From assembly GCA_022843705.1 (NCBI GenBank), contig JALHND010000020.1, positions 1 to 33,615 of the forward strand: DNA of 33,615 nucleotides, read 5' to 3'. This DNA is from Burkholderiales bacterium. GTDB lineage: Bacteria > Pseudomonadota > Gammaproteobacteria > Burkholderiales > SG8-41. A program made the position numbers and the translations under genes. The notes beneath the pieces are model-generated. The model ran no database searches. It was not told the origin of the DNA and was given only the letters and a program-made list of their open reading frames with translations. Position 1 is the stretch's first letter; every line of letters begins with the position of its first letter. This document shows positions 12,888-21,532 of this stretch, piece by piece.

Positions 12888-14489
12888 TCAGTACGCGGCC
12901 ACCGCGCCATTGCTGCGCGGGTCGGCACCGCCCTCAAGAATGCCGTCGGCGCGCCGGATGATCATACCGGCATGGCCGACGGTTTCGTCGTACGCACCGA
13001 TGATCTCGACATCGTGTCCGCGCTGGGCAAGTTCACGCACCACGGCGGCATCAAAACGCGACTCCAGCTTAAGTGTCTCGCTGGCTTGACCCCAGGTGCG
13101 GCCCAGCAGCCAGCGCGGAGCGCTGACCGCGGCCTGCACCGGCATGCCATGTTCGATCGCCCGCGTGAACAACGCACACTGCGTCTGCGGCTGGCCATCG
13201 CCGCCCATGGTGCCGTATACGACCGTGCGCCCGTCATTCAGCCGCGCCAGTGCCGGATTGAGTGTGTGGAAAGGCTTGCGCCCCGGTTCCAGCGCATTGA
13301 GCGCGGCACCATCCAGCGAAAAACTGCAGCCGCGGTTCTGCCAGTTGACACCGCTGCCCGGCAGCACAATGCCGGAACCGAACTCGTGGTAGATGCTCTG
13401 GATGAAGGACACCGCGCGGCCTGCGCCATCGATCACGCCCATCCATACCGTGTCGCCGGCCTGCGTGCGGCCGCCCCACGGCGCGGCATGTCGGCGGTCG
13501 ACCTGCAGTGCAAGAAGGCGCACATGCTCCGGCGTCAACAGGGTTTGTGCCGGCGCTTTCATGTAGCGCGGATCGGTCAGCTGCGCGTCGCGCACGCGGA
13601 ACGCCATCTTCGTCGCTTCCACACAAAGGTGCACGTAATCCGCACTGCCTTGCGGCACGCTGCGGATATCAAGCGCGTCTAGGATGCCGAGGATCAGCAG
13701 CGAAACCACCCCCTGCGTCGGCGGCGTCATGTTGTACAGGGTGCCTGCGCTGTGGGCCAGTTGCAGCGGATCGACCAGTTGCGCCCGGTGCACCGCAAGG
13801 TCACGCGCGGTCAGCGGGCTGTCGACCCGCGCCAGGTCCCCGGCCATGGATTGCGCGAGTTCACCGTGATAGAAATCGCCGGTGCCGGCCACTGCGATAC
13901 GCTCGAGTGTGTCTGCCAACCGGGTCTGGAAAAACCGGCTGCCTGCCGGTGGCACGTCCCCGGCATCAAGAAAGGTCTCGGCAAAACCAGGTTGCGCACC
14001 AAGTTCGCCCAGCTTCGCCGCCGTCAGCGCAGACTGGCTGGCCGTGACGGGAATGCCGTCGCGGGCATAGGTGACGGCATCGGCGAGCAACCGTGTCAGC
14101 GGCAGGCGGCCGCCCAGCGCCTGCCGGGAAAGGCGGTGCGCGGCACCCCAGCCGGAAACCGTGCCGGCAACGGTATTTGCGGCAACACCGCCGCGCGGCG
14201 GTATGGTCCGTGTCAGACCGCGCTCGGCATACCAGGCCCGTGACGCCCGCTGCGCGGCGGCACCGCAGGCATCAATCGCCCCAGGCGCCTCCCCGGGCAC
14301 GTGCAGCAGCCAGAAGCTGTCGCCGCCAATCGAGTTCATGTGCGGATACACCACCGCGATGGTTGCCGCGGCAGCGATCATCGCCTCGATGGCGTTGCCA
14401 CCTTCACGCAGCACGGCGAGCGCGGACTGCGCAGCCGCTGCGTGGGGCGCAACGGCCATGCCGCGTGTGGCGCATGTCGAGTGGATCAT
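12888..14489 (-). CDS. Gamma-glutamyltransferase (Ntn-hydrolase) family protein, no evident signal peptide
   Basis: MAVAPHAAAAQSALAVLREGGNAIEAMIAAAATIAVVYPHMNSIGGD...GDTVWMGVIDGAGRAVSFIQSIYHEFGSG. Confidence 0.87.
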   Translation of the reverse strand: MIHSTCATRGMAVAPHAAAAQSALAVLREGGNAIEAMIAAAATIAVVYPHMNSIGGDSFWLLHVPGEAPGAIDACGAAAQRASRAWYAERGLTRTIPPRGGVAANTVAGTVSGWGAAHRLSRQALGGRLPLTRLLADAVTYARDGIPVTASQSALTAAKLGELGAQPGFAETFLDAGDVPPAGSRFFQTRLADTLERIAVAGTGDFYHGELAQSMAGDLARVDSPLTARDLAVHRAQLVDPLQLAHSAGTLYNMTPPTQGVVSLLILGILDALDIRSVPQGSADYVHLCVEATKMAFRVRDAQLTDPRYMKAPAQTLLTPEHVRLLALQVDRRHAAPWGGRTQAGDTVWMGVIDGAGRAVSFIQSIYHEFGSGIVLPGSGVNWQNRGCSFSLDGAALNALEPGRKPFHTLNPALARLNDGRTVVYGTMGGDGQPQTQCALFTRAIEHGMPVQAAVSAPRWLLGRTWGQASETLKLESRFDAAVVRELAQRGHDVEIIGAYDETVGHAGMIIRRADGILEGGADPRSNGAVAAY

Positions 14490-14522
14490 TCTCCGGTCCC
14501 CCGCGCTCGCGCCGTCAAGCCG

Positions 14523-15848
14523 CTACCAGCCGATGACCTTCGGCAGCCACAGCGCCAGCTGCGGAAACAGGAATACCAGCAGCACCGCCAGCAACTGCAT
14601 GGCCACGAAGGGAATGACACCCATGTACATATGGCGCGTCGTCACTTCAGGCGGCGCAACACCACGCAGGAAAAACAGCGCCCATCCGAAAGGCGGCGTC
14701 AGGAAGGAGGTCTGCATGGTGATGCAGATCAGCATGCCCAGCCAGACCAGGTCCACGCCCTGTTGCGCGAATATCGGCAAAAACAGCGGCACCGCGATGT
14801 AGCTGATCTCGATCCATTCAATGAAGAAGCCAAGCACAAAAATCAGCAGTATCAGGAACAGGATGTCAGCATTGACGCCGCCCGGCAGGAACTCGAACAG
14901 GTCGTTGATCAGGTCCTCGCCATGAAGTCCGCGGAACGAGAGCGCAAAAACCTGGGCGCAGATCAGGATGAACATCATCATCGCGGTGATCTTGGCCGTC
15001 GACTGGCAGGTTTCGCGCAGCACGTTGAAGGAAAAACGGCCGGCAAAAGCCGTCACCAGAATGGCGCCCAACGCGCCCATCGATGCCGCCTCGGTGGGGG
15101 CTGCAACACCGCCGATGATCGAGCCCAGCACCGCCATCACCAGCAGCACCGGCGGCACCACCACCTTGAAGAATCTCGTCCACAGATCGCGCCGCGAAAC
15201 CGCATCACGCTCCTCCACCGGTAACGGCGGCACCAGTTCGGGCTTCACCATGCCGATCACGATGATGTACGTGCAATAGATCGCAGCCAGCAGCATGCCG
15301 GGCACGACGGCCGCCGCAAACAGCGTGCCCACCGACAGCTGGAGGATGTCGGCCAGCAGGATCAGGATCAGGCTCGGTGGAATGATCTGCCCCAGGGTGC
15401 CGGATGCGCAGATGGCGCCGCAGGCGATTCCCGGATGGTAACCACGCTTGAGCAGCGTCGGCAGCGTCAGCAGGCCCAGCGTGATTACGGTCGCACCGAC
15501 GATTCCGGTGGTCGCGCCCATCAGCACGCCGACGGCAATGATGCCGATGGCCATGCCGCCGCGCAGGCCGCCGGCAAGATGCCCGACCACGTCCAGCAGG
15601 TCATCGGCCAGACGGGACTTCTCCAGCATCACGCCCATGAACACGAACAGCGGAATCGCCAGCCACTGGTAATTGGCAACGACACCGTAGATGCGCGCCG
15701 GCAACAGGTTGAACAGATCGAAACCGAAACCGAGCGCACCGAACACGAAACCGGTCGTAGCCAGCGTCAGCGCCACCGGCACGCCCAGCATCAGCAGGCC
15801 GAAAAAACCGGCCAGCATCAGCAGCACGAGAACTTCGCTGCCGCTCAT
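14523..15848 (-). CDS. dctM: TRAP transporter large permease (DctM)
   Basis: VALTLATTGFVFG...ATTGIVGATVITLGLLTLPTLLKRGYHPGIACGAICASGTLGQIIPPSLILI; ATG overlaps dctQ stop (ATGA). Confidence 0.9.
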   Translation of the reverse strand: MSGSEVLVLLMLAGFFGLLMLGVPVALTLATTGFVFGALGFGFDLFNLLPARIYGVVANYQWLAIPLFVFMGVMLEKSRLADDLLDVVGHLAGGLRGGMAIGIIAVGVLMGATTGIVGATVITLGLLTLPTLLKRGYHPGIACGAICASGTLGQIIPPSLILILLADILQLSVGTLFAAAVVPGMLLAAIYCTYIIVIGMVKPELVPPLPVEERDAVSRRDLWTRFFKVVVPPVLLVMAVLGSIIGGVAAPTEAASMGALGAILVTAFAGRFSFNVLRETCQSTAKITAMMMFILICAQVFALSFRGLHGEDLINDLFEFLPGGVNADILFLILLIFVLGFFIEWIEISYIAVPLFLPIFAQQGVDLVWLGMLICITMQTSFLTPPFGWALFFLRGVAPPEVTTRHMYMGVIPFVAMQLLAVLLVFLFPQLALWLPKVIGW

Positions 15849-16351
15849 TGGCGGAGGGCCTTGAGTTTTTCGACCGCGCCCAGCGCAAGTGCGAAGGATT
15901 GCAGGATCAGGAACAGGAATCCCAGTGGAATCAATGCCTTGAGGGCCCACCGGTAAGGCAGGCCACCGGGATCCGAGGACTGCTCTCCGACGACCCAGGA
16001 CTGCTGCACGTATTTAACCGACAGCGCGATGATGACCAGGGAGATCGCCATCGACAGCACCGCAGACAGCAAGTCCACGTAAAGCTTCTTGCGCGGCGAG
16101 AAGTTCGCATACAGCACATCCACCCGTACGTGCTCGCCGTGCAACAGCGCGTAACTCATGCCGAACAGGATCAGCGGCGCAAGCAGGTGCCACTCCAGCT
16201 CCTGGGCCCACACCGATCCGTAGCTGAACAGATAACGCAGCAGCACGTTGGTCGCCATCAGCACGACAATCACCAGCACGAGCCACGAGGTGGCCCGGCC
16301 GGTGAGGTCGGTGAAACGCTCGATGCGCGCGCGCAATCCGGAGCCGGACAT
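15845..16351 (-). CDS. dctQ: TRAP transporter small permease (DctQ)
   Basis: Four-TM small protein, VLRYLFSYGSVWAQELEWHLLAPLILFGMSYALLHGEHVRVDVLY, between dctP and dctM. Confidence 0.88.
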   Translation of the reverse strand: MSGSGLRARIERFTDLTGRATSWLVLVIVVLMATNVLLRYLFSYGSVWAQELEWHLLAPLILFGMSYALLHGEHVRVDVLYANFSPRKKLYVDLLSAVLSMAISLVIIALSVKYVQQSWVVGEQSSDPGGLPYRWALKALIPLGFLFLILQSFALALGAVEKLKALRQ

Positions 16352-16354
16352 GGA

Positions 16355-17452
16355 TCAGCCGCGGATCTTGTTGTGGTAGACAGTCTCGCTGTAACCCGCC
16401 CAGGCGTCGTACTTGGCCTTGTACGCCATGTACGAGTTGTGCACTTTCTTCACCAGCGGATCCTTGGCCACGGCCTCGGCCAGCACCTTGTTCGTCGTGT
16501 CGCGCAGGGCCTTGACCACCGGATCCGGCAGCGAGCGGGCAATGACCTTCTGGTTCTTGACCAGGTCTTCCATGGCCTCGGCATTGGTCCGCTGGCACCA
16601 GGCTTCGCTGATCACGTTGCAGGCTGCAGCCGCGTTTTCAACGACAGCCTGCAGATCCTTCGGCAGCTTTTCCCAGGCGGCCTTGTTGATCAGCAGTTCG
16701 GACACCGTCGCCGTCTCGTGCCAGCCGGTGGTGTAGTAGTAACGCGCGGCCTTCTGCAATCCGAGGCGGCGATCCTGGTACGGACCGACAAACTCGGCGG
16801 CATCGATCACCCCGCGCTCCAGCGCCGGGAAGATTTCGCCGCCCGGCAGCAGTTTGACGTCAACGCCCAGCGCCGCGTAGACCTTGCCGGCCAGACCGGG
16901 GATGCGCATCTTCAGCCCCTTGAAATCGGCCACCGACTTGATTTCCTTCTTGAACCAGCCGGTCATCTGCACCCCGGTGTTGCCGCAGGGCATCGCCACC
17001 ATGCCGAAAGGCGCGTATACCTCGTTCCACAGCTGCTGTCCGCCGCCATCGTAGAGCCAGCCGTTCATGCCCTGGAAATTCAGGCCGAAAGGCACTGCAG
17101 TGAAATACTGCGCGGCGAAAGTCTTGCCGGTCCAGAAATAGCTGTTGGCATGGTTCATCTCCACCGTGCCGGCACGCACCGCATCAAATCCCTCAAGCGC
17201 GGGGATCAGTTCGCCCGCGCCGAATACCTGGATTTTCAGCCGTCCGCCGGACATCGCGTCGATGCGCCGGGCGAGGTCGACTGCGCTGCCGGGACCGTCC
17301 ATGTAGAACGGTGCGCCCTTGGGATAGGCGCTGGTCATTTTCCAGGTGAAGGTCTGTGACGACTGGGCCCGGGCGATCATCGGAAAACCGGTGATCGCGG
17401 CACCGGTGGCGGCAGCTCCGCCGGCGAGGAATTTCCTGCGGTTGTTTTTCAT
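16355..17452 (-). CDS. dctP: TRAP transporter substrate-binding protein, TakP (2-oxoacid)-like, Tat signal
   Basis: MKNNRRKFLAGGAAATGAA Tat-like signal; FTWKMTSAYPKG...FGAGELIPALEGFDAVRAGTVEM...GNTGVQMTGWFKKEI...GLKMRIPGLAGKV...ERGVIDAAEFVGPYQDRRLGL...YYYTTGWHE resembles TakP. Confidence 0.88.
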   Translation of the reverse strand: MKNNRRKFLAGGAAATGAAITGFPMIARAQSSQTFTWKMTSAYPKGAPFYMDGPGSAVDLARRIDAMSGGRLKIQVFGAGELIPALEGFDAVRAGTVEMNHANSYFWTGKTFAAQYFTAVPFGLNFQGMNGWLYDGGGQQLWNEVYAPFGMVAMPCGNTGVQMTGWFKKEIKSVADFKGLKMRIPGLAGKVYAALGVDVKLLPGGEIFPALERGVIDAAEFVGPYQDRRLGLQKAARYYYTTGWHETATVSELLINKAAWEKLPKDLQAVVENAAAACNVISEAWCQRTNAEAMEDLVKNQKVIARSLPDPVVKALRDTTNKVLAEAVAKDPLVKKVHNSYMAYKAKYDAWAGYSETVYHNKIRG

Positions 17453-17463
17453 GAACATGCTCC

Positions 17464-17516
17464 TGTGAAAAAAATGAAACGGGATGAGGCGGCGCGGACA
17501 ACGGCCGCTCATCCCG
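17464..17516 (-). terminator. Hairpin plus T-tract between cynS and dctP (intrinsic terminator / attenuator candidate)
   Basis: Minus strand CGGGATGAG...CTCATCCCG outer 9-bp stem with 4-bp inner stem (one bulge), followed by TTTCATTTTTTTCAC. Confidence 0.65.
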
Positions 17517-17541: not shown

Positions 17542-18042
17542 TCAGTAGGTTTTGTACGACAGGTACTTGCCGCTCATCACGATCTTCACGCGGTCGCCGT
17601 TGGGGTCGGGCTCGCGCTTGAGGTCCATCCTGAAGTCGATCGCGCTCATGATGCCGTCGCCGAATTCCTCATGGATCAGTTCCTTGAACGTGGTGCCGTA
17701 GACATTGACCAGCTCGTAGAAGCGGTAGATCAGCGGATCGGTGGGCACCGCCGTCGGCAGTGAACCCTTGTACGGCACCTGCTGCAGCAACAGCACCGCG
17801 TACGGCGGCAGTCCGAGCAGCTTGCCGGCAGCCTCGGCCTGCGCCTTGGTCATCTGCATCTGGCCGAGCAGAGCGGCAGTTGTCCACTCCTTGCTGGCGC
17901 CGACGGCCTTGGCAATCTTCGCCCAGGACAGGCCTTTCTTCAGCCTCGACTCGACCACCATCTCGGTGACATCGGTGCGTTTCATCGGCCGGCTCATGCT
18001 GGCGGCAGCCAGCAGTGCCTCGGGTGCATCATTCTTCTTCAC
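17542..18042 (-). CDS. cynS: Cyanate hydratase (cyanase), GTG start
   Basis: AALLGQMQ...PPYAVLLLQQVPYKGSLPTAVPTDPLIYRFYELVNVYGTTFKELIHEEFGDGIMSAIDFRMDLKR; catalytic Arg/Glu/Ser context (YRFYE...SAI) conserved; AAGGAG-AATCCC-GTG. Confidence 0.95.
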   Translation of the reverse strand: MKKNDAPEALLAAASMSRPMKRTDVTEMVVESRLKKGLSWAKIAKAVGASKEWTTAALLGQMQMTKAQAEAAGKLLGLPPYAVLLLQQVPYKGSLPTAVPTDPLIYRFYELVNVYGTTFKELIHEEFGDGIMSAIDFRMDLKREPDPNGDRVKIVMSGKYLSYKTY

Positions 18043-18090: not shown

Positions 18091-18990
18091 CTATTTCACG
18101 GCCACCAATGGTTTGCCTGCCGGCGACGCGGCGGCCTCGGCCGGATCCAGGCCCGGCGTCACCAGCGGCGGATGCCTCGGGTCGTGGTTTACGGCATCTC
18201 CGGCAAAGGCCTTCGAGCGGTCCACCAGGAAGTCGATCAGGTGGTTGCGGATGCGGTAGTAATGAGGATGCTTGTGCAGGTCATGGCGCGTGCGGCTGCG
18301 CGGCATCGTGTTGACCACGATCTCGGCAATCTTGGCGTACGGGCCATTGGTCATCAGCACGATCTTGTCCGCCAGCAGGATGGCCTCGTCGACATCATGG
18401 GTGATCATGAACACGGTCTGCCGGGTTTCGGCGCAGATGCGCAGCACCTCCTCCTGCAGCACGCCGCGGGTCAGGGCGTCGAGGGCCGAAAACGGCTCGT
18501 CCATCAGCAGCATCTTGGGCTGGATCGACAGCGCACGCGCAATGCCGACACGCTGCTTCATGCCGCCCGACAATTCCGCAGGGCGCTTCTTTTCCGACCC
18601 CGTCAGGTTGACCAGGTCGATGTACTGCTGGCAGTGCGCGCGGACCTTGTCCTTGTCCCATTCGGGCCAGCGCGAGGATACGGCGAAGGCGATGTTGCCC
18701 ATCACCGTCAGCCAGGGCATCAGCGCATGGCTCTGGAAAATCACCGCGCGGTCGAGGCTGGGGCCATTGACCTCGCGCCCGCCGACGAACACGTAACCGG
18801 AAGAGGTCTGGTCCAGCCCGGAGAGCACATTGAGGATCGTGGTTTTGCCGCAGCCGGAATGGCCGATCAGGCAGACAAATTCACCGGGATCGACGGAAAA
18901 ATGCAGGTTCTCGAACACCGTGGTTTCGGTGCCGTCACGGCCGGTGAATTTTTTGCTGATGCCTTCGATGCGGATCAGGGGCTCGGTCAT
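18091..18990 (-). CDS. cynD: Nitrate/cyanate-type ABC transporter ATP-binding protein
   Basis: IGHSGCGKTTILNVLSGLD Walker A, LSGGMKQRVGIARALSIQPKMLLMDEPFSALD signature/Walker B; located next to cynS. Confidence 0.85.
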   Translation of the reverse strand: MTEPLIRIEGISKKFTGRDGTETTVFENLHFSVDPGEFVCLIGHSGCGKTTILNVLSGLDQTSSGYVFVGGREVNGPSLDRAVIFQSHALMPWLTVMGNIAFAVSSRWPEWDKDKVRAHCQQYIDLVNLTGSEKKRPAELSGGMKQRVGIARALSIQPKMLLMDEPFSALDALTRGVLQEEVLRICAETRQTVFMITHDVDEAILLADKIVLMTNGPYAKIAEIVVNTMPRSRTRHDLHKHPHYYRIRNHLIDFLVDRSKAFAGDAVNHDPRHPPLVTPGLDPAEAAASPAGKPLVAVK

Positions 18991-18999
18991 GTTCACTCC

Positions 19000-19842
19000 C
19001 TATTCCGGAAACGTGACGAGTTTCGTCAGCTTCGCCATCATCAGGTCGAGCAGCATGCCGACCACGCCGATGGCCAGTATCGCCGTCATGATGTTGGTGA
19101 TCGACAGGTTGTTCCACTCATTCCAAACGAAGTAACCGATGCCGGTGCCGCCGACCAGCATTTCCGCGGCAACGATCACCAGCCAGGCAATACTGATGGA
19201 AATGCGCATGCCGGTCATGATCGTCGGCGCGGCGGCCGGCAGGATCACCCGGAAGGCGGTGCGGAACGACCCGACCTCCAGCGTGCGCGCAACGTTCAGC
19301 CACTCACGGCGCACGCTGGCAACGCCAAACGCGGTATTGATCAGCATTGGCCACACCGAGCAGATGAAAATCACGAAAATCGCCGAAACCGCACTGTCCT
19401 TCAGCGTGAACAGCGCCAGCGGCATCCACGCCAGCGGCGAGATCGGCTTCAGCACCTGGATGAACGGATCCAGCGCGCGGTACACCGTCGGCGACATGCC
19501 GATCAGGAAGCCCAGCGGCACCGCGACCAGCGCCGCCAGCAGGTAACCGGCCAGCACGCGGCCGATCGAATAACCGAGCTGGATGCCGATGCCCTTGTCA
19601 TTGGGCCCGCGGTCGTAGAACGGATCACTCAGGTGCTCCCCGATCTTCCTGCCGAAATCCGCCGGGGACGGGAATGCCGACTTCTGCCCGGTAGCCGCCG
19701 CCGCGCCGACCAGCGCGGCATACTCCGAATCCACCGTCTGCGCCGCCGTTTTGGGCAGGGTCAGCGCATGCCACACGCCGATCATCCCCAGCAGGATCAG
19801 CAGCGACAGCAGCGGCGCCCCCCAGCTTTTCAGTCGGCTCAT
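19000..19842 (-). CDS. cynB: Nitrate/cyanate-type ABC transporter permease
   Basis: NrtB/SsuC-like permease: VPLGFLIGMSPTVYRALDPFIQVLKPISPLAWMPLALFTLKDS...ILPAAAPTIMTGMRISISIAWLVIVAAEML. Confidence 0.85.
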   Translation of the reverse strand: MSRLKSWGAPLLSLLILLGMIGVWHALTLPKTAAQTVDSEYAALVGAAAATGQKSAFPSPADFGRKIGEHLSDPFYDRGPNDKGIGIQLGYSIGRVLAGYLLAALVAVPLGFLIGMSPTVYRALDPFIQVLKPISPLAWMPLALFTLKDSAVSAIFVIFICSVWPMLINTAFGVASVRREWLNVARTLEVGSFRTAFRVILPAAAPTIMTGMRISISIAWLVIVAAEMLVGGTGIGYFVWNEWNNLSITNIMTAILAIGVVGMLLDLMMAKLTKLVTFPE

Positions 19843-19870
19843 CGCCATCCCCTTTCGCGCCTCACCGGCC

Positions 19871-21235
19871 TCAACGCTTGATCGCGAAACTGGCGAGATA
19901 GGCATCCGGCTTGGCCGGGTCGAACTCCTTGCCCATCACGCTGAATTTCTTGGTCGTGGTGGTCGGCGGCTTCATGCCGACCTCCTTCATCAGCCTCATC
20001 GCATCGGTGGCGAGGAACACTTCGCGTGCGACCTTGGCGTAATCGACGTCACCCTTCAACTGGCCCCATCGTTTCATCTGGGTCATGATCCAGATCGCAA
20101 AGGAATGCCAGGGGAAGGGGTCGAAATCGATGCGGTTCGGATCCTTGCGCACGTTGCCCAGACCGTCGGCAAACGTCCCGGTGAGCACCTGCTCGACCAC
20201 GGTCACCGGCTGGTTCAGATAATTCGCCGGGGCAATGGCCTCCGCGATCTGCTTGCGGTTTTCCTGTTTAGACGCAAACGCCGTGGCTTCCATGATCGCC
20301 TTCAGCAGCGCGCGGTAGGTATTCGGCATCTTGGTCACAAACTCCCTGCTCGCCGCAAACGCGCAGCAGGGATGCCCCGCCCAGATGTCCTTGGTCAGCG
20401 TGTGGATGTAACCGACTCCGTCGTACACCGCGCGCTGGTTGACCGGATCCGACGCGAGGAAACCGTCGATGTTGTCGGCGCGCAAGTTGGCCACCATCTC
20501 GGGTGGCGGCACCGAGCGGATCTGCACGTCCCTGTCCGGATCCAGGCCGTGTTCGGCAAGGAAATAACGCAGCAGGTAGTTGTGCATCGAATAATCGAAG
20601 GGCACTGCGAACTTGAAACCCTTCCATGATTTCGGGTCGCGCTTGTCCTTGTGTTTGATCGCCAGCGTGATCGCCTGGCCGTTGATGTTCTCCACCGCAG
20701 GCATGGTGTACGGAATCGGGCTGGACCCCACGCCCAGCGATATCGCCAGCGGCATCGGCGAGAGCATGTGCGCGGCGTCGTATTCCTTGTTCAGGGTCTT
20801 GTCGCGGATCACTGCCCAGCCGGCGGTCTTGACCACGTCGACGTTCAGACCCTGGCGCGCATAAAAGCCCATCGGCTGCGACATGATGATCGGTGTGGCG
20901 CAGGTGATGGGAATGAAACCGACCTTGAGTGAGGTTTTTTCCAGGTTGCCGCTCTGCGCAAAAGCCTCTTTCGCCATGCCCAGCGGGAAAAACGTGGAAA
21001 TCGCCGCCATTGCGGTGCTGGCACCCACTGCATTGAGGAAGCGCCGCCGCGTTGCATCGTGGGGAAACAGCGCGCGCATCACCGCCGCCTCGACGACGCG
21101 ATTGCCCAGCGCTTCGCTGTCCGCCGTCCGGGATGCCAGGTCAGCCTGATGCGCGGCTTCGTCCGTGTGCCGGCCGCAGGAGCAGCCGCGGGTCAGGGAC
21201 GTGCTGGCGTCGAAGGGATCCTTGAATGCAGACAT
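19871..21235 (-). CDS. cynA: NrtA/CynA-family ABC substrate-binding protein with Cys-containing N-terminal extension and Tat signal
   Basis: MSAFKDPFDASTSLTRGCSCGRH...ATRRRFLNAVGASTAMAAIS...VGFIPITCATPIIMSQPMGFYARQGLNV...; first gene of cynABDS-like order. Confidence 0.85.
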   Translation of the reverse strand: MSAFKDPFDASTSLTRGCSCGRHTDEAAHQADLASRTADSEALGNRVVEAAVMRALFPHDATRRRFLNAVGASTAMAAISTFFPLGMAKEAFAQSGNLEKTSLKVGFIPITCATPIIMSQPMGFYARQGLNVDVVKTAGWAVIRDKTLNKEYDAAHMLSPMPLAISLGVGSSPIPYTMPAVENINGQAITLAIKHKDKRDPKSWKGFKFAVPFDYSMHNYLLRYFLAEHGLDPDRDVQIRSVPPPEMVANLRADNIDGFLASDPVNQRAVYDGVGYIHTLTKDIWAGHPCCAFAASREFVTKMPNTYRALLKAIMEATAFASKQENRKQIAEAIAPANYLNQPVTVVEQVLTGTFADGLGNVRKDPNRIDFDPFPWHSFAIWIMTQMKRWGQLKGDVDYAKVAREVFLATDAMRLMKEVGMKPPTTTTKKFSVMGKEFDPAKPDAYLASFAIKR

Positions 21236-21276
21236 GGTCGGTTCTCCTTGAAGGGTGTTTTTCCGTCTTCCCTTAT

Positions 21277-21292
21277 TGCAGCAAGCGTGCCA
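21277..21292 (-). promoter_or_regulatory. Putative sigma54 (RpoN) -24/-12 promoter of the cyn operon
   Basis: Minus strand TGGCACG-CTTG-CTGCA versus consensus TGGCACG-N4-TTGCW; GG/GC spacing exact; about 42 nt upstream of the cynA start. Confidence 0.65.
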
Positions 21293-21411
21293 ACCTCCGC
21301 CAGCGCCGGAAAATTGTCTGCAACCGCATGTTTAACAATGAAAATTTCATCTGTCACGGAAATCGCCGCAGCGTCATGGAAGCCGCAATAGGATCGGAAA
21401 CAGTGCGCAGC

Positions 21412-21428
21412 GCGCCACGTTACGGTGC
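21412..21428. promoter_or_regulatory. NtrC-like dyad (enhancer candidate)
   Basis: GCGCC-ACGTTAC-GGTGC; one mismatch to GCACC-N7-GGTGC, about 120-150 bp upstream of the sigma54-like promoter. Confidence 0.4.
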
Positions 21429-21532
21429 GCATTCGCACTCCCGCGGCGCATTACGCACCATCCCGGCGCGCCTCGTCGTGTTGCGCCCGCGGATGCGATA
21501 ATCCGCAGCCATAACAACAACGAGTGTCCAAC

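Follow-up and report, generated by a model that had tools for sequence, protein, structure and literature searches.

A sigma54 promoter core and an NtrC-like upstream array at the cynABDS operon of a Burkholderiales bacterium

Promoters that use sigma54 require an enhancer-binding protein (EBP) for activation. The window studied here, a 33,615-nucleotide stretch of a Burkholderiales genome, carries a cynABDS operon with a sigma54-like site ahead of cynA, and no divergent cynF adjoins cynA in the window. In the cynFABDS system of Pseudomonas pseudoalcaligenes CECT5344, CynF is encoded divergently to cynA and is essential, and cyanate induces the operon (PMC6627978). Which protein, then, activates the promoter here? 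Sequence comparison makes it very likely that the promoter is driven by NtrC together with IHF, with no dedicated cyanate sensor.

The operon and its sigma54 core

The four genes lie on the minus strand: cynA (19871..21235), encoding a CmpA/NrtA-type (NMT1_2) substrate-binding protein; cynB (19000..19905), a permease over the TIGR01183 cut-off, whose true start is probably an ATG near 19848 or 19842; cynD (18091..18996), an ATPase over the TIGR01184 cut-off; and cynS (17542..18042), a cyanase over the cut-offs of NF002773 and TIGR00673. The permease and ATPase exceed cut-offs for nitrate transporters and the cyanase exceeds its own; the transporter is named Cyn because it is linked to cynS. 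Downstream of cynS, in the same orientation (12888-17512), come a DctP/DctQ/DctM TRAP transporter and a gamma-glutamyltransferase-like gene, which many relatives retain there. They may be part of the same nitrogen-controlled unit as cynABDS, and could possibly be served by the same sigma54 promoter. Another sigma54-like site, TGGCACGATTGCTGCT (L130:546-561; genome contig C32:22545-22560), is found 3' of a gamma-glutamyltransferase-like reading frame, ~50 nt ahead of a gene for a TctC-type binding protein.

The -24/-12 core upstream of cynA, TGGCACGCTTGCTGCA (21277..21292, minus strand), was defined by pattern match and by conservation in orthologues. Its layout, TGGCACG-CTTG-CTGCA, has one mismatch to TGGCACGNNNNTTGCW with exact GG-N10-GC spacing, and 41 nt separate its 3' end from the cynA ATG at 21235, with a predicted +1 at 21266. 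An earlier note on this DNA had described the same element, and on rescan its sequence, minus strand, coordinates (21292..21277), single mismatch and GG-GC spacing are all correct; its distance of ~42 nt to the CynA start and its transcription start near 21267 agree closely with our values.

Such a site could be a chance match, with cynA transcribed from another promoter, and loose matches do occur at chance frequency in both the window and the genome. Allowing two mismatches or fewer, the window has 7 matches (8.4 expected); allowing one or none, a genome scan with TGGCACGNNNNNTGCA gives 90 matches, compared to 102 for a reversed control. We rejected genome-wide pattern counting as proof because the reversed pattern is at least as frequent. 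The cynA-proximal core is the sole one-mismatch match in the window, and it outscored 200 of 200 mononucleotide shuffles of the 250 nt upstream of cynA. A -24/-12 element is present in most of 80 cynA orthologues retrieved from genome contigs of Beta- and Alphaproteobacteria, mostly 30-60 nt before the start codon; absence of this conservation is what the earlier note had named as counting against its reading. Across the 12 nearest promoters the columns TGGCAC and TTGCTGCAAT are invariant, and the rest of the stretch has diverged. We accept the site because it is conserved in orthologues, motif counts alone being insufficient when loose matches are at chance level. Judged by this conservation, it is a real sigma54 promoter core of cynABDS. 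A chance origin is very improbable, given an element that holds a fixed place across two proteobacterial classes, co-occurs with the NtrC-like array described below, and is absent jointly with that array where another regulator sits upstream. RpoN itself is encoded in one copy.

Candidate activators and the upstream array

The genome assembly (247 contigs, 92% complete) encodes three full EBPs: NtrC, a GlrR-type protein, and a PilR/AtoC-type protein accompanied by a kinase. NtrC is encoded with NtrB, over curated cut-offs (TIGR01818, NF008293), and both IhfA and IhfB are present. Inspection of gene neighborhoods found no EBP beside cynA at any window-clade locus. A divergent CynF-type EBP lies ~0.2-2 kb upstream of cynA in 16 Alphaproteobacteria-type loci; the neighborhoods of the window and its relatives have none, in agreement with the earlier note, which had seen no cynF next to the operon.

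Three NtrC-like dyads precede the core on the minus strand: CGCACCGTAACGTGGCG (21413..21429, centered at -155, 10.1 bits), TGCGCCGCGGGAGTGCG (21434..21450, -176, 6.6 bits) and CGCGCCGGGATGGTGCG (21454..21470, -196, 12.1 bits), spaced 20-21 bp. The scores come from a position weight matrix (PWM) built on 41 dyads of torF-glnK-amtB promoters of the same family, none from cyn, with training sites chosen by their likeness to the known NtrC consensus. The torF-glnK-amtB promoter of this genome serves as an internal control, having a sigma54 core and the dyads TGCACCAACATGGTGTA and CGCACTTAATTGGTGCA, and those of relatives are alike. Singly the window dyads are modest (in shuffling tests the best one reaches p 0.03); the triple score beats 100 of 100 shuffles. 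With a plain consensus, the NtrC dyad score gave a clear group signal (9.83 versus 8.17, sd 0.20) with weak single-locus p-values, which the family-trained PWM resolved.

Scored against dinucleotide shuffles, with the caveat that related sequences are not independent, the upstream regions of the 12 window-clade loci reach z-values of 9.2 for the best site, 19.2 for a spaced pair and 25.8 for a triple (20-21 bp apart). A second betaproteobacterial group gives 8.6 (site) and 16.8 (pair), and other betaproteobacterial loci with a sigma54 site give 9.1 and 11.8. The corresponding values are -1.6 and -1.9 at CynF loci, and 0 and -0.3 at loci without a sigma54 site. By this measure every CynF-less betaproteobacterial cynA promoter that has a sigma54 site (29/29) carries NtrC-like sites, and CynF loci do not. 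When 655 sigma54-like sites over 810 kb (both strands) were considered, strong upstream NtrC pairs were seen almost only at cynA promoters. Dyad centers in relatives lie at positions similar to those of the window or are shifted by ~1 helical turn. We also considered whether the arrays serve the divergent arnT-like gene; this is disfavored because they hold their position relative to the sigma54 core even though the upstream neighbor is not always the same gene or equally far away.

Could another EBP act here? GlrR-type and PilR/AtoC-type regulators are both encoded and either might in principle drive a sigma54-dependent promoter, but the conserved sites ahead of the core resemble those that NtrC has at same-family glnK promoters, and NtrC suits a nitrogen-source operon; we regard control by one of these two as very unlikely, if less so than a chance core. 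An unlinked CynF orthologue, marginally less improbable, would follow the published activator of the homologous CECT5344 operon, and an assembly at 92% leaves room for one. Against this, no CynF turned up in the genome that holds the window: when it and 14 more from the genus were searched for CynF, the AAA matches were to other EBPs, and the PAS matches were separate, in kinases. CynF loci also carry their own upstream signature: TTCGT/ACGAA words at 2.76 per region (0.31 expected), often as ACGA-N4-TCGT. This repeat, defined in the present analysis from 17 CynF loci and not a published motif, is not enriched at NtrC-type loci and was not found upstream of the window cynA. NtrC-type loci instead have TGCAC/CGCAC half-sites (4.1-4.3, versus 0.9 expected), compared to 0.47 at CynF loci. 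The analogy to CECT5344 drawn in the earlier note therefore holds for the sigma54 promoter and fails for the activator, as no CynF was found in the genome and the conserved sites upstream are of the NtrC kind, unlike the CynF-locus repeat. Arrays of ACGA-N4-TCGT-type repeats ~100-190 nt before cynA, in L055, L058, L060, L066 and other CynF loci, are a candidate CynF operator.

Between array and core lies an IHF-like site, AAACATGCGGTTG (21321..21333, minus strand, centered at about -61), a near match to WATCARNNNNTTR; neither it nor the array figured in the earlier note. Throughout the window clade a AAACARNNNNTTG-like element, likewise a near match to WATCARNNNNTTR, is conserved at -60 to -62; matches such as AATCAGGTTGTTG are seen in some second-group promoters at ~-73 and in most of the torF promoters at -50. 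We treat these putative IHF sites as supporting evidence only for the promoter architecture.

In favor of control by NtrC and IHF stand a conserved sigma54 core, a conserved array that resembles the NtrC sites known from this family, and genes for RpoN, NtrB, NtrC, IhfA and IhfB in a 92% complete genome where CynF was not found. Under nitrogen limitation, NtrB would phosphorylate NtrC, which would bind the dyads of the array (155-196 bp upstream); IHF would bend the DNA at ~-61, and NtrC would loop onto the RNA polymerase-sigma54 complex, opening the promoter at ~21266. Since this scheme has no dedicated cyanate sensor, the operon would be expected to track nitrogen status.

Other modes of control at cynA

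In close relatives the operon is under different regulators. At five loci (L032, L037, L042, L043 and L053) a PAS histidine kinase and a LuxR-type response regulator lie directly upstream of cynA (L032:4997-6876), and both the sigma54 site and the NtrC array are absent; a short inverted repeat (GTAGTAGCACTACTAC in L032) is found between the LuxR-type gene and cynA. Over its PAS domain the kinase shares 46-50% identity with CynF, a level clearly exceeding that of the other PAS matches found in the genus. These loci fall inside the NtrC-type group on a quick CynA tree, which has SH-aLRT support only and some long branches; starred branches require the kinase label to change five times or more. 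One operon thus comes with three modes of control, and since close relatives use different regulators for the same genes, rewiring of the switch seems to have happened repeatedly.

Two further arrangements were observed. At L063 (6166-6978) and similar loci (L057, L062, L064, L065, L067, L074, L079, L080, L082, L091, L094, L098 and L104) the gene immediately ahead of cynA, and codirectional with it, is of DJ-1/PfpI type, with no sigma54 site before cynA; no convincing sigma54 or NtrC sites were found ahead of the DJ-1/PfpI-type gene in Methyloversatilis-type loci. Five alphaproteobacterial loci with a sigma54 site and no adjacent CynF (L069, L092, L102, L103 and L107) have TGCC-N9-GGCA-type dyads upstream of cynA, possibly an alphaproteobacterial NtrC variant.

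We lean toward a picture in which the cyanate operon has switched repeatedly among CynF, which combines PAS and EBP, with sigma54 and ACGA-N4-TCGT repeats, an NtrC array with sigma54 and no cyanate sensor, and a PAS kinase with a LuxR-type regulator and no sigma54. The PAS domain common to CynF and the kinase would then act as a sensor, perhaps of cyanate, and the NtrC mode would lack it.

Comparison with known systems

The window shares with CECT5344 cynFABDS the cynABDS order and the sigma54 promoter ahead of cynA; there CynF is essential and cyanate induces, whereas here CynF was not found and NtrC-like sites lie upstream. It resembles glnK-amtB-type NtrC promoters in its sigma54 core, tandem GCAC-N7-GTGC-type upstream dyads and intervening IHF-like site, but compared to torF-glnK-amtB the cynA dyads, at their 20-21 bp spacing, are farther upstream (-155 to -196 versus about -97 to -128). 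The PAS kinase/LuxR-type loci of close relatives have the same operon and an arnT-like upstream neighbor, and lack the sigma54 site and array that the window has. Cyanobacterial cynABDS is also under global nitrogen control, there exerted by NtcA (cited in PMC13421787 from Harano et al. 1997). NtcA is an unrelated sigma70-type activator, unlike the sigma54 and NtrC proposed here. We found no report of NtrC control of a proteobacterial cyn operon in the open-access literature searched, and where sigma54 regulons have been surveyed, cyanate lyase is named solely among the enriched COGs (PMC12316311). The promoter type is already known; the NtrC array and the regulator swap at cyn appear undescribed in that literature.

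The cyn promoters would offer a clean example from nature of how enhancers are swapped at a sigma54 promoter, in which the core is kept and the upstream sites vary with the activator; they also yield a predicted operator for CynF and a PAS domain that is a candidate sensor. If the repeated switching is real, cyanate use in the NtrC mode would be a nitrogen-starvation response only. The prediction is that in some bacteria any shortage of nitrogen, with no sensing of cyanate, is enough for cyanase and its transporter to be made.
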